DNA from: Arthrobacter burdickii
Lineage (GTDB): Bacteria; Actinomycetota; Actinomycetes; Actinomycetales; Micrococcaceae
Length of the DNA stretch: 64,000 nucleotides
NCBI RefSeq assembly: GCF_030433645.1
Contig: NZ_JAROCG010000001.1
Location: 2,480,001-2,544,000, forward strand
Direction: 5' to 3'
Part shown: in pieces, positions 5,894 through 64,000 of the stretch
Layout of the letters: every line of letters begins with the position of its first letter
Position numbering within the stretch: position 1 is the stretch's first letter
Notes under the pieces: model-generated
Seen by the model: the letters and a program-made list of their open reading frames with translations, nothing else
What the model was told of the DNA's origin: nothing
Database searches by the model: none
Position numbers and translations under genes: made by a program

Positions 5894-6916
5894 TCAGCCT
5901 CGCTCCCAGAAACTAGGTCCTACGGGTTCTTGGAAATCGCTTGACGCGACGAGGTAGCCCTCGTCGTCGACTTCGATGGGTAGCTGTGGCAGCGGACGCG
6001 CAGCCGGCCCAAAAATCACCTTGCACTCTTGCTCGAGGTCGAAGGTGGATTGGTGGCAGGGGCACAGCAGGTGGTGTGTCTGCTGTTCGTACAGTGCTAC
6101 CGGGCAGCCGACGTGCGTGCAGATTTTGGAATACGCAACGATTCCGTCGTAGCCCCAGTTCTCCCGGCCGGGAGAGGGGTTGAGCTCCTCGGGGTCCAGG
6201 CGCATCAGCAGGACGACTGCCTTCGCCTTCTCCTCGAGCTTGTTCTCGATCTCGTTGAGGCCTTCGGGAATGACGTGGAACGCCGATCCGATGGTCACGT
6301 CCGAGGCACGGATGGGTGTACCGCTCGGGTCACGGGTCAGGCGGACGCCGGTGTCCCACATGGTCTGCTTCAGGGAGTTACCCGGCAGCGGACCGAGGTC
6401 GCGGAAGATCGCGATCGCCGGCAGGGGAGCCAGCAGCGCCGCTCCGAGGAGCGTGTTGCGGATCAGCGGGCGGCGCTTGATGCCGGACTCGTCGAGGACG
6501 TCGTTGACGATCTTCTCCGCGTCCTGGCGGTCCCTCTCCGGGCGGATCTCGTGGCGGCTCTCCGTGATCTCGTGGTCCGGCATGAGCGTCTTCGCCCAGT
6601 GCACGATACCGACGCCGATACCCAGCATCGAGAAGGCGGTGCCAAGGCCGAGCATCAGGTTCTGGAGGCGCAGGCGCTCCACCGACTGGTCGAGCGGGAC
6701 GAAGAAGTAGCCGGCGAAGAAGAGCAGGGTACCGAGAACCGAGATGAAGAACAGCAGGGCGACCTGGCGTTCGGCGCGCTTCTCCGCGCGTCGGTCACGA
6801 TCCGCGAGGCGCGGCCGGTGGGGCGGGAGACCCGGGTTCTCGAACTCGTCGAGTTCCCGGCCCGGCGTAGCGACGGTGACCGAGGTTCCCGGAGCGCCGT
6901 TACTGGAGTCGGCCAT
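5894..6916 (-). CDS. qcrA: Cytochrome bc1 complex Rieske iron-sulfur subunit
   Basis: Transfers electrons from quinol to the QcrC haems through a [2Fe-2S] cluster. About 340 residues with three N-terminal membrane helices, as in other actinobacterial QcrA, and a C-terminal Rieske domain. Cluster motifs CTHVGC and CPCHQS are intact and supply two Cys and two His ligands plus the disulfide cysteines. ATG 6916 is preferred to ATG 6928 because AAGGATGAG lies at a proper distance from it, whereas the upstream start abuts the ribosome site. It is followed within 2 bp by qcrB. Confidence 0.96.
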   Translation of the reverse strand: MADSSNGAPGTSVTVATPGRELDEFENPGLPPHRPRLADRDRRAEKRAERQVALLFFISVLGTLLFFAGYFFVPLDQSVERLRLQNLMLGLGTAFSMLGIGVGIVHWAKTLMPDHEITESRHEIRPERDRQDAEKIVNDVLDESGIKRRPLIRNTLLGAALLAPLPAIAIFRDLGPLPGNSLKQTMWDTGVRLTRDPSGTPIRASDVTIGSAFHVIPEGLNEIENKLEEKAKAVVLLMRLDPEELNPSPGRENWGYDGIVAYSKICTHVGCPVALYEQQTHHLLCPCHQSTFDLEQECKVIFGPAARPLPQLPIEVDDEGYLVASSDFQEPVGPSFWERG

Positions 6917-7869: not shown

Positions 7870-8508
7870 TTACTGAAGGAAGTAGATGATGATGAACAGG
7901 CCGATCCAGACCACATCGACGAAGTGCCAGTAGTACGACACCACGATGGCGGAGGTGGCTTCGAAGTGGCCGAAGCGGCGGGCGATGAACGCGCGGCCGA
8001 TGATGAAGAGGAAGGCGATGAGACCGCCGATCACGTGGATCCCGTGGAAGCCCGTGGTCATGTAGAACGCCGACCCGAAGGGGTTGGACGACAGCGCGAC
8101 GCCTTCGGAGACCAGCTCTGCGTACTCGTAGGCCTGCACCGAGACGAAGATCGCGCCCATGATGAACGTCAGCAGGAACCACTCGACCATGCCCCAGCGG
8201 GCGAAGGAGAAGAGTCCGCCCGTCCTGCGCGGCTGCAGGCGCTCGGCGGCGAAGACGCCGAACTGGCAGCTGAAGGAGCTCGACACCAGGACGATGGTGT
8301 TGATGAGGGCGAACGGGACGTTCAGCTTCTCGGTCTCCGTGGCCCACAGTTCGCTGGAGGTGGAGCGCAGGGTGAAGTACATGGCAAAGAGGCCGGCGAA
8401 GAACATCAACTCGCTGGACAGCCACACCACGGTTCCTACGGAGACCATGTTGGGACGGTTGAGCGCGGGATGCGGGGCGGCACTGGGGGCTTGGGTCGCA
8501 GATGTCAC
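7870..8508 (-). CDS. ctaE: Cytochrome c oxidase subunit III
   Basis: Structural subunit of the aa3 oxidase. 212 residues with five predicted membrane helices, the short form normal in Actinobacteria. Conserved patches include [11 protein letters not shown] and [10 protein letters not shown] near the C-terminus. First gene of the minus-strand ctaE-qcrCAB cluster, 38 bp upstream of qcrC, and divergent from trpD. Confidence 0.97.
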
Positions 8509-15412: not shown

Positions 15413-15894
15413 GCGTGGACCTGGTCCTTTCGGAAGGCGGGAAAACCGGGGAGTAGGAAGCACAGAATGTCCTGGCGCCTGTGCGCGTCGAAAGCGTCGC
15501 CGACCGTGGAGCCGGACGCCTCATGACCAGTACGTCGTTGCGTGAGTCCTGGCACGGCCGGCACACGGTGCGGAAGAGGACCGGACAGCGACAGCAGGAT
15601 CGGCGTCGTCCGGCAGGTGCCTGCTAGGGAACGGTGCGGTGGGCGGTACAGCTCACGGGATAAGCCTTTCGACGTGCTCTTGCCCACGCCGGACCAGCAC
15701 TGTCATGCCGAGGCGAAGGCCGCTTCGTCATCCGAACCACCCAGGAACATGGGGTTGGTGCGCGGTCCAGTCGGAGCTTTGCGACCGCATCTCTTGAAGC
15801 TGGAACGACTATAGGCGGAGAACGGAGCGGTGGGACCAATGAGAAGCGATGTGACCCGTCGTCGGAGCGGCCGTTCCATGCCGTGAACTCCGCG
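15413..15894. other. 482-bp leader/intergenic region of the LLM monooxygenase
   Basis: No confident gene. On the minus strand a frame is open from about 15687 and ends with a stop overlapping the monooxygenase start. Its last 30 codons include DILCFLLPGFPAFRKDQVHA, but the upstream part looks non-coding. It could hold a regulatory leader peptide; nothing is proven. Confidence 0.3.
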
Positions 15895-21047: not shown

Positions 21048-21782
21048 TCAGTCCTGCCGTCCGCCACTCGGCTTTCCGGGCTTTGAGCTCCAGCCCTGCC
21101 GGTGCAGTCGTTCAAATCCGTCCAAGAGCAAGTCGAGAGCGAACTCGAACTCGAACTGATCGTCGCAGCCCTGCCCCACTACCGAGGCGCCGTCATGGGC
21201 GCTGGAGGCGGCAATGGCAGCGATGTTGGGGTACAGGTCGGTCATCTGCTGCAGCATCACCGCCTGGGCGGCCGACGGCACCGCACTCTGTCCGGCGGCC
21301 GCGGCGGGGTCGTCGAACAGCTCCTGCGTGAAACCCCACATGCGGCCGCCCATGGCATGCATGACGTGGTGGGTGAGATCGACGGAGAGACCACCAGCCA
21401 GGAACATGCCGGTGAAGGAATCCCAATAGGCCAACACAGCAGGGGTTCTGGTGGTGCGCGACTCAATGACCTGGCGCGCCCATGGGTGCCGCTGCAACGC
21501 GCGGCGTGCTGAGAGCACCCGCTGCCGGACTTCGCTTTTCCAGTCGGATCCTCCCGCTGAAGGGTCGATTTCGGCGATGATGGTTTCCACCATGCCGTCG
21601 AGGAGTTCTTCCTTTTTGGAGACGTGCTTGTACAGGGCCATCGGCACTACCTGAAGCTCCTGGGCGAGCCTGCGCATGCTCAGTGAGTCAATGCCGGTCT
21701 CGTCGGCCAGGAAGACGGCGGCCTGCAGGACACGGTCCCTGTTGAGGCGGACGCGCCGGTCCACTTCAAGGTTCTGGGTCAC
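21048..21782 (-). CDS. TetR-family regulator (class-A TetR-like C-terminal domain)
   Basis: 244 residues. The HTH is near residues 15-55 (LSMRRLAQELQVVPMALYKHV), and a TetR_C-like ligand domain follows, with FTGMFLAGGLSVDLTHHVMHAM near 120. It belongs to the same subfamily as the regulators at 44010 and 46639. A site resembling GTAC-N3-GTAC lies upstream at 21823-21838, and two better copies sit before the DUF4386 gene at 22201, so it probably controls both. Its C-terminal tail is basic and glycine-rich. Confidence 0.9.
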   Translation of the reverse strand: MTQNLEVDRRVRLNRDRVLQAAVFLADETGIDSLSMRRLAQELQVVPMALYKHVSKKEELLDGMVETIIAEIDPSAGGSDWKSEVRQRVLSARRALQRHPWARQVIESRTTRTPAVLAYWDSFTGMFLAGGLSVDLTHHVMHAMGGRMWGFTQELFDDPAAAAGQSAVPSAAQAVMLQQMTDLYPNIAAIAASSAHDGASVVGQGCDDQFEFEFALDLLLDGFERLHRQGWSSKPGKPSGGRQD

Positions 21783-44797: not shown

Positions 44798-45829
44798 ATG
44801 ACACTGGACGGGCAGCACGAGGTACAAGGTCACGAAGAGGGCCGCGGGCCAGCCGGCAGCACGATGCGCGCAGTCGTGCAGGACCGCTATGGCACGGCCG
44901 AGGTCTTGAAAATTCAACAGATCCCCCGACCGACGCCCGCCGAGGATGAGGTGCTGATCCGGGTGCACGCGGCTGGTCTGGACCGGGGAACGGAGCACTT
45001 GATGACCGGCAAGCCCTACCTGATGCGCCTCGGCGTAGGAGTGCGGCGGCCCAAAAATCCTGTAGTGGGTGTAGATGTCGCAGGAACGGTTACTGAAGTC
45101 GGCGCGTCGGTGACCCGATTCCAGGTAGGCGATGAAGTATTCGGCGTCAGCAAAGGATCCTTCGCGGAGTCCGCAGTGGCCCGTGAACACCGACTCGCCC
45201 GCAAGCCCGCCAACACAGCCTTCAAGCAGGCTGCTGTGGTTCCGACATCGGCGCTCACCGCACTCCACGCCCTGCGCGACGCCGGCCGTATCCAGCAGGG
45301 ACAGAAGGTGCTGATCATCGGCGCTTCCGGTGGTGTCGGCAGCTATGCAGTACAACTGGCCGCGGCGTTCGGTGCTGAAACCACCGGCGTCTGCAGCCCA
45401 GCCAAACTCGACCTCGTGCGCGCCCTCGGCGCCGGCCACGTGATCGACTACACCCGTGATGACTTCGCTGATGGCGCCTCCCGCTACGACCTGATTATCG
45501 ACACCGGAGGAAATCCGGGACTCTCCCGGCTTCGCCGCGCGCTCACGCCCCGCGGTACCGCCGTTCTCGTCGGTGGTGAGGGAGGCGGCGACTGGACAGG
45601 GATGGGCCGGCAGGTGCGGGCCATGATGCTGTCACCATTCATCAGGCAGCGCCTGGTCATGTTCTTCTCCACACCGCGCGCCAGCGACCTGCAGGTGCTC
45701 GCCAGCCTCCTCGAGGCCGGCACCATAGCGGCAAGCATCGGCAGCACCTACCCGCTCGAACAGGTCCCGGACGCCATGCGCCACCTCCAGTCCGGGCAAA
45801 CGCGCGGAAAAACCGCCATCACAATCTAG
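44798..45829 (+). CDS. Zinc-independent NADPH:quinone oxidoreductase (MDR family)
   Basis: 343 residues. GroES-like N-terminal domain with MRAVVQDRYGTAEVLKIQ and the Rossmann motif VLIIGASGGVGSYAVQLAAA (~residue 172). No zinc-binding Cys set, so it belongs to the quinone-oxidoreductase branch; likely detoxifies quinones or reactive enals with NADPH. ATG 44798 follows GAGAGAGCAACAG. Next gene is DUF4386 on the same strand; divergent from TetR 44010. Paralogue of 47453. Confidence 0.92.
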   Translation: MTLDGQHEVQGHEEGRGPAGSTMRAVVQDRYGTAEVLKIQQIPRPTPAEDEVLIRVHAAGLDRGTEHLMTGKPYLMRLGVGVRRPKNPVVGVDVAGTVTEVGASVTRFQVGDEVFGVSKGSFAESAVAREHRLARKPANTAFKQAAVVPTSALTALHALRDAGRIQQGQKVLIIGASGGVGSYAVQLAAAFGAETTGVCSPAKLDLVRALGAGHVIDYTRDDFADGASRYDLIIDTGGNPGLSRLRRALTPRGTAVLVGGEGGGDWTGMGRQVRAMMLSPFIRQRLVMFFSTPRASDLQVLASLLEAGTIAASIGSTYPLEQVPDAMRHLQSGQTRGKTAITI

Positions 45830-46638: not shown

Positions 46639-47370
46639 TCAACCCTCCTTGGCCGCGTGGGCAGCCTCGATACCGTCAAGGATGACCTGAAGCCCGAACC
46701 GGAACTCGTTCCCGAACGCATATCCGGGTTGCAGGATGTAGGCAGCCGCGATTTCGGCCAGATTCGGGAAGGCGTGCGACATCATCTGCTGCTGCGCCAG
46801 AACGTCCTCCGTCGCCTCCGTTATGCCACCGGCCTCGTCGAGTGGCAGGGCGGCCTCCTGCAGGGCGAATCCATCGACGTAGCTGTCGAGCAGGGACATC
46901 GCATGACCGGCCATGGCCGGAGAGAAGCCCGCGGTGCGCAGGCATCCGATCGTGGCATCAAGATGTCTCAAAGTCGCAGCCCCTGGCGTGGACCGCATCA
47001 GCGCGATGGCCCAGGGATGCCGGGCGAGGACAGCGCGGGCGGACTCCGCACGCTCCCGCATCGCCGTCTTCCAATCCTCCCCGGGGGAGGGCAGGACGAT
47101 CTCGCTGAAGACGACGTCCACCATGCCGTCGATGAGGTCGTCCTTGTTCTTCACGTGATAGTAGAGCGACATCGCCTCGACACCGAGTTCCTGAGCGAGC
47201 TTGCGCATACTCAGCGACTCCAGCCCGCCGGCGTCGGCGAGGCCGACAGCCACCTGCACTGCCCGATCCCTGGTGACAGGCTCCCTCGGGGCGGCCTTCG
47301 TTCTCGCTGGTGCCACAGCATCTCCCGTCTCGGATAGCTCGTAGTCCGTGCAAATATTCACGCTACCCAT
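46639..47370 (-). CDS. TetR-family regulator (class-A TetR-like C-terminal domain)
   Basis: 243 residues. HTH: LSMRKLAQELGVEAMSLYYH (~53-72). Ligand domain: HAMSLLDSYVDGFALQEAAL (~162). The N-terminal 30 residues are polar and absent from the paralogue at 44010. Divergent from the gene at 47453, with a strong operator pair at 47377-47426, so it probably represses the whole downstream operon including an ABC transporter. Confidence 0.93.
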   Translation of the reverse strand: MGSVNICTDYELSETGDAVAPARTKAAPREPVTRDRAVQVAVGLADAGGLESLSMRKLAQELGVEAMSLYYHVKNKDDLIDGMVDVVFSEIVLPSPGEDWKTAMRERAESARAVLARHPWAIALMRSTPGAATLRHLDATIGCLRTAGFSPAMAGHAMSLLDSYVDGFALQEAALPLDEAGGITEATEDVLAQQQMMSHAFPNLAEIAAAYILQPGYAFGNEFRFGLQVILDGIEAAHAAKEG

Positions 47371-47452: not shown

Positions 47453-48460
47453 ATGAGATCGAGCATCAGCCCAGCCAAAACGACTACCGCGATGAAAGCC
47501 GTGGTCCAGCACAGATACGGCAGCACTGAGGTGCTCAGCTTCCAGGACGTCGACAAGCCGACGGTGGGGGACGGCGAGGTGTTGGTGCGCATCCATGGCG
47601 CGTCCGTCAACCACGCGGACTGGGTCTATGCCAGCGGCCGCCCGCTGATCGCGCGGCTGGCCTTCGGTTTGCGCACACCAAGGAACACTGTGCGGGGCAA
47701 GGACATCGCGGGCCGGGTGGAGGCGGTAGGTGCCGGCGTCACCGACTTCCGTCCGGGTGACGAGGTGTACGGCGAAATCGAAGCTGGAGGCTTCGCCGAA
47801 TTCGCCACCGTCCCGGCTGATCTGCTGGCTTCGAAGCCGGCGAACCTGACCTTCGAGCAGGCCGCCACGGTTCCGCTCTCGGCCAGGACCGCTCTGCAGG
47901 GACTCAGGGGCGGCGGCACCATCCAGCCTGGCCAGAAAGTCCTGATCAATGGCGCCTCCGGCGGGGTGGGCACGTTCGCCATCCAGATTGCGAAGGCCTT
48001 CGGTGCGGAGGTGACCGGGGTATGCAGTGCGAGGAATGCCGAACCGGTCCGGGCGCTCGGCGCCGATCGCGTCATCGACTACACCCGGGAGAACTTCACA
48101 GAGAGCGGCCTGCAATATGACCTGATCTTCGACTCCATCGGAAACCACCCGCTGTCGGCACTCCGGAAGGCCCTCACCCGCGAGGGGACGCTCGTGCTCT
48201 CCAGTGGCACCGGCGGCCGCGTCCACGGGCCCATGGGACGTATTGTCCGGGCGCTTGTCCTGTCGAGGTTCATCCGCCAGGACCTGCGCACCGTTCCCGC
48301 GAAGCCGGGCAGGGAAAGCCTGGACATGTTGCGGGATCTCATCGAATCCGGCCGGGTCACCCCGGTCATCGACCGGACGTACCCGTTGAGCCAGGTACCC
48401 GAAGCGATCGACTACTTCGTCAAGGATCACGCCAGGGCAAAAATCGCCATCACCGTGTAA
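47453..48460 (+). CDS. NADPH:quinone oxidoreductase (MDR family)
   Basis: 335 residues; KAVVQHRYGSTEVLSFQDVD at the N-terminus, NGASGGVGTFAIQIAKAFGA near residue 165, DLIFDSIGNHPLSALRKAL near 225. Same subfamily as the gene at 44798. First gene of an operon of five (this, DUF4389, ABC ATPase, permease, DUF2306). ATG 47453 is chosen after the operators; the upstream in-frame sequence overlaps them. Confidence 0.93.
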   Translation: MRSSISPAKTTTAMKAVVQHRYGSTEVLSFQDVDKPTVGDGEVLVRIHGASVNHADWVYASGRPLIARLAFGLRTPRNTVRGKDIAGRVEAVGAGVTDFRPGDEVYGEIEAGGFAEFATVPADLLASKPANLTFEQAATVPLSARTALQGLRGGGTIQPGQKVLINGASGGVGTFAIQIAKAFGAEVTGVCSARNAEPVRALGADRVIDYTRENFTESGLQYDLIFDSIGNHPLSALRKALTREGTLVLSSGTGGRVHGPMGRIVRALVLSRFIRQDLRTVPAKPGRESLDMLRDLIESGRVTPVIDRTYPLSQVPEAIDYFVKDHARAKIAITV

Positions 48461-59164: not shown

Positions 59165-59270
59165 GACCAGCAACGTAAGGGTCTAGAGGGCACTCAATGA
59201 TCAGGAAAACCCGATGAGTAGACCCATCCACTGGTTGCTCACCTCGAGCATCCGCTACAGCTACTTGTTC
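59165..59270 (-). repeat. Repeat copy B (similar to 39690-39790)
   Basis: Shares GCTCGAGGTGAGCAACCA and TCCTGATCAT with copy A, with roughly three-quarters of bases matching across about 80 bp by eye. No gene is evident. Confidence 0.55.
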
Positions 59271-59286
59271 GCGCTCCATCCTCCGA

Positions 59287-59487
59287 ATGTCGCTCCTTCT
59301 GCTGCCCATCCCGCCGCGCGTCCGTAATCAGGTCGCTGGCGCCCTGGCAATCGGCCTGTGGTTTCTCGGCGTGGACGTTCTGGTCACCGCGGCCGCCGCG
59401 CCCTGGTGGGGGCAGCTGATGGTCGCTGCTGCAGCCGCGTTCATCATCGCGGGTGTTGTATGGATGGAAGGCGGCGGCGGACGATGA
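59287..59487 (+). CDS. Small membrane protein (66 aa)
   Basis: Two hydrophobic helices, QVAGALAIGLWFLGVDVLVT and GQLMVAAAAAFIIAGVVWM, joined by a short AAAAPWW turn, ending in MEGGGGR. The hairpin layout looks genuine, but no family is recognised and the ribosome site is weak. Not linked to the neighbours. Confidence 0.55.
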   Translation: MSLLLLPIPPRVRNQVAGALAIGLWFLGVDVLVTAAAAPWWGQLMVAAAAAFIIAGVVWMEGGGGR

Positions 59488-60051
59488 TCGACCGACCGGC
59501 TCATGCCCGATGAGATTTTGGTGGAGGTAGCCGGTAATGAGGAAGCGCAGGGGAGAGGGTGATCGGCTCTGAGAGAAAGTCATCAAGGGCCCACGACCGC
59601 ATGACTGCTGGATCTGGACCGGAGCTGTAGCGGACGACAGGTACGGCCGATCCTGGGTCACCCGGGACGGCGAGCAACGCGGCCTGCACCCTTGCATCGC
59701 GCTCCTGCATGTCTGTGACGTGCCGATGCTGACGTGCCGCTGTGCGTGTACGCCAGCACCGGGGGAGACACACATCTGCTGCCCGGCACCCAGGCACTGG
59801 ACATGCTGGACCGGTCCCGAAAGAGCCGGCACCAATGCCTCATCCTTCCGGAGGCGCGGTATCGGCCAGATCCGGTTCCCCGCCCGGTCCGTCGGGAGCA
59901 CGGATGGCACGAGCCAATCGTCCAACCCCGGCTCACCGGTGTTGACCCCCGAGGCGCCAATCAATTCTGACGCCCCAGCGACCGACCGCCAGTAGTCAAG
60001 ACCTTGGTTGGGCGTCCCAGTAGGCGATCTTCTTGCGGGTTGCCGGGCTTT
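59488..60051. other. 564-bp intergenic region without a confident gene
   Basis: Several frames are open (up to 241 codons on the minus strand extending from 59964 into the small gene), but none shows a domain, signal or ribosome site I trust. Probably decayed sequence. Confidence 0.35.
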
Positions 60052-60528: not shown

Positions 60529-60656
60529 TGGACCAGACTAATGCAGCCCCTCGTTGATTGTTGCCGAGTACGCAGATTATTAGCTATGGGGACGCCGACG
60601 TAGCTCCGGGAGTATTGGCCGCCTGGACATGGTCAGGAGAGGGCCTCCAAACCGCT
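60529..60656. other. Spacer before the dif site
   Basis: No gene seen. Together with 60685-61096 it makes a 568-bp gene-free block around the dif site. Confidence 0.5.
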
Positions 60657-60684
60657 ACCTGACATAATGTAGATTATCGGCGAA
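60657..60684 (-). other. dif: Chromosome dimer resolution site dif (XerCD target)
   Basis: Read on the minus strand: arm TTCGCCGATAA, centre TCTACA, arm TTATGTCAGGT. The 11-6-11 layout and the TTATGT arm match dif in general, and the whole differs at about one position from the actinobacterial consensus as I remember it. It lies in a gene-free stretch, as dif sites do, and is flanked by an extra dyad (CCTGACA ... TGTCAGG). Marks the replication terminus region. Confidence 0.88.
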
Positions 60685-61096
60685 TTGTCAGGAAGCTTGG
60701 AAGGGGCTGCAGGTCGCCTCACGGAGGTCACGGCTACTGACGCCTTAACGTGAGCGAAATCCACGGCCTGTGGCGGGAAACATCGTTCGAGGATCGTTGC
60801 GGTGTGGGCTCACATCAGGATCTGCCGGCGGGCGAATGGGAAGATGCTGTCTCGCGCAGTTTTGTCCGACCAAGAACTCCTGACCGGGAACACGGGACCT
60901 TCAACCTAGTACCCGTTGTCGCACCTGGATAGGAAGGTGCGACGACGCAGAGGCTGCATCTGCTCTGGCCGTACTTTCCTGGCCTTCGTGACGTGCTGTC
61001 CGACGCAGACAGCCCACTGCTGCTCGGCGGCTTACGAGTACTACAAGGTTCTAACAAGTTATACAACTTTCCTTACAACGGGGTAGATTTCCGTAT
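60685..61096. other. Region between dif and the AAA ATPase gene
   Basis: No confident gene. A small frame at 60750-60932 has no recognised family. The last 60 bp are AT-rich with a dyad AAGTT-ATAC-AACTT (61056-61069), likely the promoter/operator of the ATPase. Confidence 0.45.
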
Positions 61097-62269
61097 ATGC
61101 ATTTGGAGCTGAACCCCTATAACCCCGGATCCGGCCTACCACCCCGTGTCATGGGAGGCCGGCAGCAGGAAATGGACGCGTTCGACCTCATCGTCGCGCG
61201 GACCAAACGAGACCTGCCAAACCGTGGAATGGTGCTGTCGGGGCTTCGGGGTGTCGGCAAGACAGTCCTCCTCAACTACCTTAGGTCCCACGCGGACAAC
61301 CACGGCTGGTTCACCATCTGGCTCGAGGGCAAGCCCGAAGCACAAGGCTTCACGGAGGTTCGTGAGAAGTTTGCACGGGAGCTCACCTCCGCAGCCCGCC
61401 GATACAACGGGCCCTCCGGCAAGGACCGATTACGAGAGGCTTTTGGGACAATCCAGTCCTTCAACCTCGCCCTGGGTGTGCCCGGAATCAAAGCCGATAT
61501 CAGCGTGAGCGCCAACCGGGCCAACTCCGGCACCATTGACATCGACCTTGAGGAGCTCGTCGAGGACGTTTCACTCGCCCTCAAGGCCGACAAGAGCGCC
61601 TTCGCGATTTTCATCGACGAAATGCAGGACCTAGACCAGGAACTACTCTCCGCGCTCATCACCGTCCAGCATGCAGCAGGTCAACGCGGTTGGCCGTTCT
61701 ACATCGTCGGTGCCGGCCTGCCCAATCTCCCTACCACCCTCAGTGAAGCCCGGACCTACGCCGAACGGCTCTTCACTTACCGCACCATCGGGCCCCTCGC
61801 TGATACAGATGCGCATTATGCCCTGACGCGGCCGGCGAAAGAGATGGGGGCGGAATATTCCCAGGACGCTCTCGACGTCCTGCTGGATGCCTCCGGGCGA
61901 TACCCCTACTTCATCCAAGAGTTCGGCAAAGCGATCTGGGATGCAGCTCCGAGCACACCCTTCACCGAGGAAGACGCAGAGGTGGCAGTGTCGATCGGTC
62001 GGAGCCAACTCGACGCAGGTTTCTTTTCCTCCCGCTGGGGACGCGCCACACGCAAGGAACGCGGCTATCTCAGGGCGATGGCTCATGACGGTGACGCAGG
62101 ATCCAGTACAAGCCAGATTGCCGAGCGACTCGGCGTCAAAGTAACCGCCCTCGGCCCCGCTCGAGCTCAACTGATCAACAAAGGCATCATCTACTCCCCC
62201 AAGTACGGACAAGTCGCCTTCACAGTCCCGGGTATGTCCGGCTTCATCCTTCGACAGCAGGAAGACTGA
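61097..62269 (+). CDS. AAA-family ATPase (Orc1/Cdc6-like or archaeal-ATPase-like)
   Basis: 390 residues. Walker A GLRGVGKTVLLNYLR (~residue 50), Walker B FAIFIDEMQDLDQEL (~174), sensor region PFYIVGAGLPNLPTTL (~212), C-terminal winged-helix-like domain with TSQIAERLGVKVTALGPARA (~340). The combination of a P-loop ATPase and wHTH recalls ORC/Cdc6 or MoxR-like STAND ATPases. The start at ATG 61097 directly follows an AT-rich promoter. Adjacent to dif; partner genes not evident. Confidence 0.9.
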   Translation: MHLELNPYNPGSGLPPRVMGGRQQEMDAFDLIVARTKRDLPNRGMVLSGLRGVGKTVLLNYLRSHADNHGWFTIWLEGKPEAQGFTEVREKFARELTSAARRYNGPSGKDRLREAFGTIQSFNLALGVPGIKADISVSANRANSGTIDIDLEELVEDVSLALKADKSAFAIFIDEMQDLDQELLSALITVQHAAGQRGWPFYIVGAGLPNLPTTLSEARTYAERLFTYRTIGPLADTDAHYALTRPAKEMGAEYSQDALDVLLDASGRYPYFIQEFGKAIWDAAPSTPFTEEDAEVAVSIGRSQLDAGFFSSRWGRATRKERGYLRAMAHDGDAGSSTSQIAERLGVKVTALGPARAQLINKGIIYSPKYGQVAFTVPGMSGFILRQQED

Positions 62270-62656: not shown

Positions 62657-64000
62657 ATGCCCATGAGTTCACTCAGCTCCCGGCCTTCAGTCGGGCCCGC
62701 CACTGCGAAGAGCCGGCGTCTTGGTCTGGCGTTGCTGGTAGTCGCCAGTGCCCAGCTGATGCTGGTCCTTGATGATTCGATCGCGAACATCGCCCTGCCA
62801 TCGATCCAGATCGAGCTGGGTATCTCCCCCGCGAGCCTGCCCTGGGTGATCAACGCCTACATCCTGGCGTTCGGAGGTCTGCTGCTCTTCGGTGGAAGGC
62901 TCGGTGACCTCTTCGGCCGACGGCGCATCCTGCAGATCGGTATCGGCCTGTTCACGCTCTCATCTCTTGTGGCCGGGATCGCACCGGCCGGCCCGGTCCT
63001 CGGCGCAGCCCGCGCGATCCAGGGACTCGGCGCCGCACTGACCGCGCCGAACGCCCTTGCCCTGATCACCACGACGTTCCCTGCCGGCGAGGCACGCAAC
63101 AAGGCGCTTGCCGTGTACGGGGCCATGTCAGGCCTCGGCGTGACCGTAGGGCTGCTGCTGGGAGGCGTGCTGACTGGGACGCTCGGGTGGCGGTGGGTGT
63201 TCTTCATCAACCTCCCCATCGGACTCGCTCTGCTGGCGGGAACCCGCATCCTCGTCGACGCGCCCCGACATGCGGGCCGCCTCGACCTCCCCGGAGCGGT
63301 CGCTGGCACTGGCGGGGTCGCGGCCATCGTCTTCGCCATCATCCACGGGGGTGAGCAGGGCTGGGATGCCCCGATGACACTGATCGCGTTCGGCCTGGCC
63401 GCCGTCCTGCTCCCCGCGTTCGTCATCATCGAATCCCGGAGCAAGGACCCGATGCTTCCCCTGCGTCTGTTCAGGGATCGCAACCGCACCGGCTCCTACC
63501 TCGGCATGCTGTTCATCAGCTTCGGGCCCATGGGCACCTTCTACCTGCTGACCCTCCACATGCAGCACATCCTCGAATACGACCCCGTCCGCACAGGGCT
63601 GGCCTGGCTGCCCTTCGGCGCTGGCATCATCCTCTCCGCCGGCATCGCGTCGAAACTCGTCGTGCGGTTCGCTCCCCGCGTCGTGGCAGTCTCCGGGATC
63701 CTCATCTCCACCGTCGCCATCCTGTGGCTGTCGACCATCACCCCTGACTCCGGGTACGCACGGCACCTCATGCTCGGGATCTTTGCCGTCGCCGTCGGTT
63801 TCGGGCTGAGCTTCGTGCCACTGACCCTCACCGCAGTCACCGGCATCCGCCCCGATGACTCGGGCATCGCCTCGGCACTGCTCAACGCCGCCCAGCAGAT
63901 CGGCGTCGCCCTCGGCATCGCAGCCCTGTCGACCATGAGCGTCACCACAACAGAAAGCCGATTTCCGAACGCCCTCACCACCCTTCGTGAAGCCCGTTCA
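62657..64000 (+). CDS. MFS exporter, DHA2 (EmrB/QacA) family (cut by window edge)
   Basis: 448 codons to the edge with no stop. LALLVVASAQLMLVLDDSIA at helix 1, FGGRLGDLFGRRRIL (motif A) near residue 75, AARAIQGLGAALTAPNALAL near 115, GLLLGGVLTGTLGWRWVFFINLPIG (motif C region) near 157. Fourteen helices expected; about 13 seen. Drug/proton antiporter. Start at ATG 62657 behind GAGGAG. Two CsoR-like palindromes suggest control by a metal- or sulfide-sensing repressor. Confidence 0.94.
   Translation, partial: MPMSSLSSRPSVGPATAKSRRLGLALLVVASAQLMLVLDDSIANIALPSIQIELGISPASLPWVINAYILAFGGLLLFGGRLGDLFGRRRILQIGIGLFTLSSLVAGIAPAGPVLGAARAIQGLGAALTAPNALALITTTFPAGEARNKALAVYGAMSGLGVTVGLLLGGVLTGTLGWRWVFFINLPIGLALLAGTRILVDAPRHAGRLDLPGAVAGTGGVAAIVFAIIHGGEQGWDAPMTLIAFGLAAVLLPAFVIIESRSKDPMLPLRLFRDRNRTGSYLGMLFISFGPMGTFYLLTLHMQHILEYDPVRTGLAWLPFGAGIILSAGIASKLVVRFAPRVVAVSGILISTVAILWLSTITPDSGYARHLMLGIFAVAVGFGLSFVPLTLTAVTGIRPDDSGIASALLNAAQQIGVALGIAALSTMSVTTTESRFPNALTTLREARS

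Follow-up and report, generated by a model that had tools for sequence, protein, structure and literature searches.

We identified the 28-bp sequence TTCGCCGATAATCTACATTATGTCAGGT, on the minus strand at positions 60657..60684, as the chromosomal dif site of an Arthrobacter-like actinobacterium, located where replication terminates (probability about 97%). At dif, two recombinases act when replication ends and take apart daughter chromosomes that have become joined. We observed directly the sequence, uniqueness, conservation and position of the site, and the presence of XerC, XerD and FtsK in the same genome. The site itself is ordinary and belongs to a known kind; calling it pins the terminus of a draft genome to a few kb. 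The window (the whole 64,000-bp stretch of DNA that was analyzed) corresponds to G000:C1:2480001-2544000, and dif is at C1:2540657-2540684.

The site has two 11-bp arms and a 6-bp center, with conserved inner arms. Read from the sequence on the minus strand, these are TTCGCCGATAA (the XerC arm, 60674..60684), TCTACA (the central region, 60668..60673) and TTATGTCAGGT (the XerD arm, 60657..60667); the assignment of the arms to XerC and XerD follows what we take to be the usual convention. A first-pass annotation had described this 28-mer, its arms and its center, and had placed it in a gene-free spot. The letters are as it said, and no ORF of at least 80 aa overlaps the site. It had also put the arms about one base from the actinobacterial consensus. 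That was too close: there are 3 differences from the consensus of 32 congener sites and 5 from the site given for Frankia alni in the available part of PMC3025954. Nine congeners have a site one base off the one in the window, and one (G015) has an identical site.

The site is unique in the genome. Allowing up to 3 mismatches, the 28-mer had one match in 3,949,738 bases (both strands, 8 contigs), the outcome that the first-pass annotation had named as support, and the reversed pattern had none at the same threshold. Within the window there was also one match, and there were none in 100 shuffles of the window. With a matrix made from the 32 congener sites, dif scored 53.6 bits and the runner-up in 1.004 Mb of sampled sequence from this genome scored 3.9. 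Given the shuffles and these scores, there is practically no chance that the 28-mer is an accidental match to a short palindromic pattern; we found no point in favor of that idea and regard it as already refuted. A second copy, which had been proposed as the mark of a dif-integrating element, was found neither in the genome (up to 3 mismatches) nor with the matrix (1.004 Mb sampled). The same searches gave no convincing second, degenerate dif near the one in the window.

The dif core was present in 37 of the 38 genomes of the genus. At a limit of 3 mismatches, the 28-mer itself occurred in 23 of them (including this genome); of the 15 genomes left, 14 had a 19-position core with up to 2 mismatches. 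By these two thresholds we found no recognizable dif in G018, and the only site in G033 was degenerate. Across the family, the core was found with at most one mismatch in 281 of 295 genomes, representing 31 of 31 genera. An exact scan of named genomes matched a single record, that of Arthrobacter sp. H41, in a set from which the window's own record may be missing. This match and the named plasmids discussed below suggest that the family is Micrococcaceae. In the published survey, as far as its available part goes, dif was predicted in 66 of 66 single-chromosome actinobacterial genomes (PMC3025954). The site described here is like those in length (28 bp), in copy number (single), in its location near the terminus and in its core, and is unlike them in that the switch at the terminus is revealed by a polar octamer and not by GC skew.

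Some relatives contain secondary sites (for example, on G009:C1, G010:C42 and G026:C32) that have dif-like arms and an altered center. The 28-mer might thus be something other than the chromosome's own dif: what is left of an attachment site, or a dif-like site of the plasmid type. We consider this very improbable. The secondary sites have changed centers, whereas the center here, TCTACA, is the commonest one among the primary sites of the congeners. In addition, the 28-mer is the only such site in the genome and is placed at the polarity switch described below.

The position of the site is that of a terminus. dnaA is at C1:613289-613774, and dif is 1.927 Mb away. That is, 48.8% of the 3.950-Mb genome separates the two, provided that C1 (3,120,448 bases) and C2 (816,217 bases) of this draft genome form one circle, and the proposed location opposite dnaA is borne out to that extent. 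We searched for dnaA in seven congeners, and in six of them a single large contig carried both dif and dnaA. The distance was ~48-53% of the contig in five of these six. In the sixth, G002 (89% complete), dif is at G002:C1:2488809, 71% of the contig away from dnaA, which may reflect a rearrangement or an assembly fault. GC skew, which had been suggested as a check, was too weak to mark the terminus here: its mean was 0.0049 on one arm (25 stretches) and -0.0071 on the other (18 stretches), which is not a significant difference (P = 0.22), and we dropped it.

A polar octamer succeeded where GC skew failed. We ranked octamers that occur 60 times or more by how strongly they are biased on the two arms. 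Read from origin to dif, the top-ranked octamer, CGGGGGAG, had counts of 73 to 3 on the first arm and 52 to 3 on the second. The ranking is partly circular, as dnaA and dif were themselves used to define the arms. Less circular is a fit in which both switch points were left free. A two-switch model fit 126 of the 131 octamer sites in the sampled part of C1, and its best terminus switch was a 3.06-kb interval (C1:2539760-2542824) with dif inside it at 2540657; two neighboring intervals came within one site of the best. The interval is bounded by the last plus-strand octamer before the switch (59760..59767, C1:2539760) and the first minus-strand octamer after it (62824..62831, C1:2542824). The origin switch fell at 539-543 kb, ~70 kb from dnaA, in a region where sites are sparse. 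In the contiguous stretch 2440001-2624000, the octamer pointed toward dif at 16 of 16 sites before it and 13 of 13 after it, and the shorter GGGGGAG had 2 exceptions among 48 sites. At 18 further dif loci, taken from within the genus and the family, GGGGGAG pointed toward dif 146 times (72 + 74) and away from it twice (1 + 1). The E. coli-type sequence GGGNAGGG had no clean polarity in 20-kb samples. The single copy, the location opposite dnaA and a switch interval that contains dif together support the terminus location that the first-pass annotation had proposed.

This kind of signal is known, since the same octamer has already been described in Corynebacterium variabile. There, in the available part of the report, (T/C)GGGGGAG is biased to the leading strands and points to dif (PMC3219685); the concept of such AIMS octamers is set out in the available part of PMC5993296. 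The two cases share the octamer, the leading-strand bias and the switch at dif. They differ in that the octamer was found here from the data, in another family, and locates the switch to ~3 kb, and in that the related 7-mer holds at 18 further dif loci. CGGGGGAG is a good marker of the terminus where GC skew fails.

The genome encodes the expected machinery. XerD is at C1:3109552 (TIGR02225, 340.5 bits; cut-off 329.6), XerC is at C1:2290849 (best model TIGR02224, 322.6 bits, slightly below the cut-off of 335.15), and the FtsK gamma domain (PF09397) is at C2:761360. Weak NCBIfam matches of the host Xer proteins include GmtY and GmtZ. By analogy with other members of these families, XerC would bind TTCGCCGATAA and XerD would bind TTATGTCAGGT. 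When sister chromosomes are fused as a dimer, FtsK would read the polar CGGGGGAG-type sequences and pump DNA along them toward dif. FtsK would then activate XerCD, and strands would be exchanged in the 6-bp center to give two monomers.

Conservation at this locus extends beyond the 28 bp. We aligned the flanks of 33 sites from the genus, 30 after removal of near copies; the set excludes three genomes with a match and no locus (G030, G032 and G034), the degenerate site of G033 and the second one of G014. On the XerC side, columns -22..-15 contained 4.1 bits (30 loci; 3.9 bits at -23..-16), and the maximum among 500 shifted controls was 1.47. On the XerD side, columns +1..+8 contained 5.2 bits (29 loci) versus a control maximum of 1.61. 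The conserved XerC-side motif, AGCCCCTTCC, is 15-24 bp outside the XerC arm, at 60699..60708 on the minus strand in the window, and the best match in the window starts at -24. In a held-out test, the best motif match started at -25..-22 in 23 of 52 loci; the matrix was trained on half of the 103 primary loci from the family, a split in which related genomes may fall in both halves and the window's own locus may be in the training half. The motif probably serves as an outer half-site or as an accessory site.

The XerD-side flanks fall into recurring types that are common to several genera. Similar pairs made up 87 of 6555 near dif, compared to 11-21 of 5995-6216 at control offsets. One of these types (loci L008, L009, L013, L024 and L025) had no match to the gene cassette described below. 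Another observation concerns L183 (8893-9201) and the right flank of L173, where one recurring type seems to extend into an ORF at its 3' end; from its appearance, we take this ORF to be a DUF1016/YhcG-type nuclease. The left flanks did not form recurring families (34 of 6786 similar pairs versus 31, 65, 69 and 63 of 6786 at control offsets), and the evidence for that side is the fixed-position motif only.

By eye there is also a dyad, GGAG-GCCCT-CTCC, 9-21 bp outside the XerD arm (60636..60648, minus strand). XerD-side hairpins with z below -2 occurred in 10-12% of 102 loci next to dif versus 3-5% further out. This excess across the family is small, and we therefore rate the dyad in the window as weak. 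A general hairpin at both flanks was set aside: 6-12% of loci near dif had z below -2 versus 2-5% elsewhere, a slight excess only.

In related genomes and on plasmids, the edges of dif and dif-like sites can be occupied by elements of 3.1-4.7 kb that code for an integrase, for an HTH protein and for a third, large protein. Such elements account for at least some of the recurring flanks. The clearest case is a 3,163-bp sequence directly outside the XerD arm in G010 that is 100% identical to 3,163 bp in G009. The G009 copy adjoins a secondary dif-like site at the same base at which the G010 copy adjoins dif. It is on a contig of 122.8 kb that is otherwise related to G010 contig C42; these contigs are either plasmids or integrated elements. 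Of the three gene products, one is a tyrosine recombinase (PF00589, 407 aa), one is an HTH_26 protein (110 aa) and the third, at 485 aa, has no match in Pfam or NCBIfam. The idea that the third gene is a degenerate tyrosine recombinase was unsupported (hhalign probability 0.5%, E = 0.12). The recombinase retains the R..HxxR..H..Y positions, which we take to be the catalytic residues.

Relatives of these genes (E <=1e-4) that are beside dif and read away from it were found at 13 of the 103 primary loci examined with about 0.4-1.5 kb of flank. Nine were on the XerD side and four on the XerC side. They were also found in 4 of 14 secondary-site regions. Longer flanks confirmed the gene order and revealed shortened copies. 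Overall, 70 of 295 genomes in the family had the recombinase (E <=1e-35). It had no match in the window's own genome at E 1e-35, and no integrase cassette was found near the window's dif.

The insertions are at the boundary of dif, on either the XerD or the XerC side, as judged by comparing flanks with and without a cassette and by identical copies at different sites. In G163, the conserved XerC-side flank starts 39 bp from dif. In G097, G176 and G185, sequence matching that flank starts 3.9-4.4 kb from dif, and the gap is filled by a cassette of 3.1-3.2 kb plus 0.6-1.3 kb of other DNA. G185 has two copies, one on a chromosomal contig and one on contig C3, that are 99.8% identical over 3.26 kb, and by eye the DNA just outside both resembles ordinary XerC-side dif flanks. 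G012 and G289, which belong to different genera, share 3.26 kb at 82% identity from dif outward, with no common DNA directly beyond it.

Plasmids carry such elements too. The recombinase was found in 193 records of named plasmids, and we inspected 11 of the 40 plasmid records listed. A dif-like site (up to 4 mismatches) was upstream of the recombinase on 6 of the 11; the others had 5-8 mismatches. Most of the inspected plasmids had the same three genes annotated, and in some the third gene was changed or missing. In Paenarthrobacter sp. YJN-5, the same 4.7-kb unit is on two plasmids, each time directly after a different dif-like site. On one of these plasmids the DNA past the unit resembles, by eye, a common XerD-flank type, which would follow if the unit had inserted itself in between the site and its flank. 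In P. ureafaciens AT, plasmid pA carries two units in tandem. The 4,712-bp 'plasmid' record pD of the same strain is identical to one such unit (records NZ_CP094493.1, L266, and NZ_CP094490.1, L267); pD may be a circle that was excised, or it may have arisen in assembly.

Based on these comparisons, it is possible that dif in this family extends past 28 bp. In this model, which we hold at even odds, dif is framed by outer half-sites, and both boundaries between half-site and arm are specific landing places for small self-mobile elements. The elements would consist of a tyrosine recombinase, an HTH_26 protein, a third protein of ~485 aa and optional cargo, and would move by means of their own recombinase, with the recombinase clade setting the side. 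They would leave dif intact, would settle at plasmid dif-like sites as well as at the dif of chromosomes, and would leave the recurring flanks as footprints. The dif in the window would be an empty landing place that keeps its XerC-side half-site (60699-60708). If so, a site needed by a circular chromosome would be a safe harbor for elements that avoid breaking it. Two questions would then become testable: how an element can share one half of an essential recombination site and still allow dimers to be resolved, and how dif-like sites serve the exchange of DNA between actinobacterial plasmids and chromosomes.

The relationship between recombinase and side comes from a tree of 41 recombinases (5 more were dropped). 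The XerC-side rows formed one clade (100/100), a result that depends on only three such rows and next to which, according to a warning from the tree program, long branches meet. The 20 XerD-side rows were elsewhere in the tree, mixed with rows that lack a dif-like site. Among the 30 best loci, 14 had a dif-like site upstream of the recombinase gene (at most 3 of 19 positions off); in 30 random 3-kb windows the best sites were 7-9 positions off. Of the other 16 loci, 3 start within 300 bp of a contig end and 13 have no dif-like site, indicating that many members are not at a recognizable dif-like site.

The conserved XerC-side motif might instead be an accessory site for the host XerCD/FtsK and not the outer half-site of mobile elements. 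We think this quite possible, a little short of even chances. The motif is found across the family at a fixed distance, including at loci, such as the one in the window, that show no sign of an element, and by eye the inner ends of XerC-side elements have a similar motif at the same distance. On the other hand, in the G185 copies the insertion appears by eye to separate the XerC arm from a flank that carries the motif, which is the arrangement to be expected with the motif as one arm of the element's target.

The elements might also have arrived by a different route. IMEX are integrative elements that exploit Xer, such as the CTX phage, the gonococcal island and LME-1 (PMC9765430, available part). 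This well-known route would have the host XerCD, and not the elements' own recombinase, recombine dif with a dif-like site on a circle. A dif-like site does precede the integrase in the 14 of 30 loci and 6 of 11 scanned plasmids mentioned above, and L233 has two (2 and 4 mismatches). The IMEX route leaves a dif-type site at both ends, however. In G010, a search out to 6 kb from dif that allowed up to 6 mismatches found no second one; in G009, two sites lie 2 kb past the element, each with 6 mismatches, which is close to what chance would give; and the other cassette loci scanned had no second site with up to 2 mismatches. The retained R..HxxR..H..Y positions and the single clade of XerC-side integrases (3 of 3 rows) also argue against it. 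We therefore consider arrival by the IMEX route unlikely. The elements resemble IMEX, as portrayed in the available part of PMC9765430, in targeting dif or dif-like sites and differ in encoding their own tyrosine recombinase and in leaving one dif and not two at the loci scanned. At the window's dif there was no IMEX signature: no second dif-type site was found with up to 3 mismatches in the genome or with the matrix in 1.004 Mb sampled.

The plasmid sites bring to mind the pdif modules of Acinetobacter plasmids (available parts of PMC13141974, PMC12907356 and PMC7315799). As in those modules, there can be several dif-like sites per plasmid with DNA between them (two on G023:C25, 839 bp apart). 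The sites here differ in their direct orientation, in having actinobacterial arms and, in other cases, in having a recombinase cassette beside the site. The G023:C25 pair is in L183 (G023:C25:14237-28270), where dif-like sites near 7997 and 8836 are in direct orientation with a small ORF between them. This arrangement resembles a pdif module, and by eye the contig carries conjugation-type ORFs. In the open-licence PMC literature we found no report of pdif modules from Actinobacteria, no paper on dif-like sites on Arthrobacter plasmids and no description of such dif-edge elements, which may have been described elsewhere.

RIT elements and the Gamma-Mobile-Trio are three-gene units built around tyrosine recombinases. 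The elements here are also three-gene units and differ from those in that one product is clearly a recombinase, one is an HTH_26 protein and the large third one has no Pfam match. Separately, an exact actinobacterial dif core is on nine IMG/VR contigs (L092-L100). These contigs, on which we found none of the cassette proteins, are either phages integrated at dif or host flanks.

The immediate neighborhood of dif varies. On the XerC side, a gene for an AAA_16 ATPase (61097..62269, plus strand) starts ~0.4 kb from dif. Among the matches scored (38 genomes, at most 7 candidates each), such a gene was beside a primary dif elsewhere only in G013; G014 has a weaker homologue ~3 kb from its secondary dif-like site. 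On the XerD side, ~0.7 kb from dif, is a remnant of a gene from a multi-copy family (59199..59960, plus strand; 69-74% to homologues). By eye, the intact ORF of this family on L196 is HNH-endonuclease-like, and the same stretch carries a resolvase-like ORF. Gene order around dif varies between congeners, and sequence from the right end of the window is located far from dif in G004.

The region is thus plastic, which fits a terminus without proving that the terminus caused the decay. The first-pass annotation had used the terminus to explain a cluster of decayed genes and duplicated accessory modules to the left of dif. The degraded member of a multi-copy family ~0.7 kb to the left and the variable gene order agree with that explanation, and as a causal claim it is weakly supported. 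The duplicated modules are perhaps two pairs of diverged internal repeats, 45203-45513 / 47834-48144 and 21563-21745 / 47094-47276 (67% and 70%). We found no tRNA genes in the window. Its sole Rfam match above the gathering score was a SAM-IV riboswitch at 15671-15799 on the minus strand (61.1 bits).
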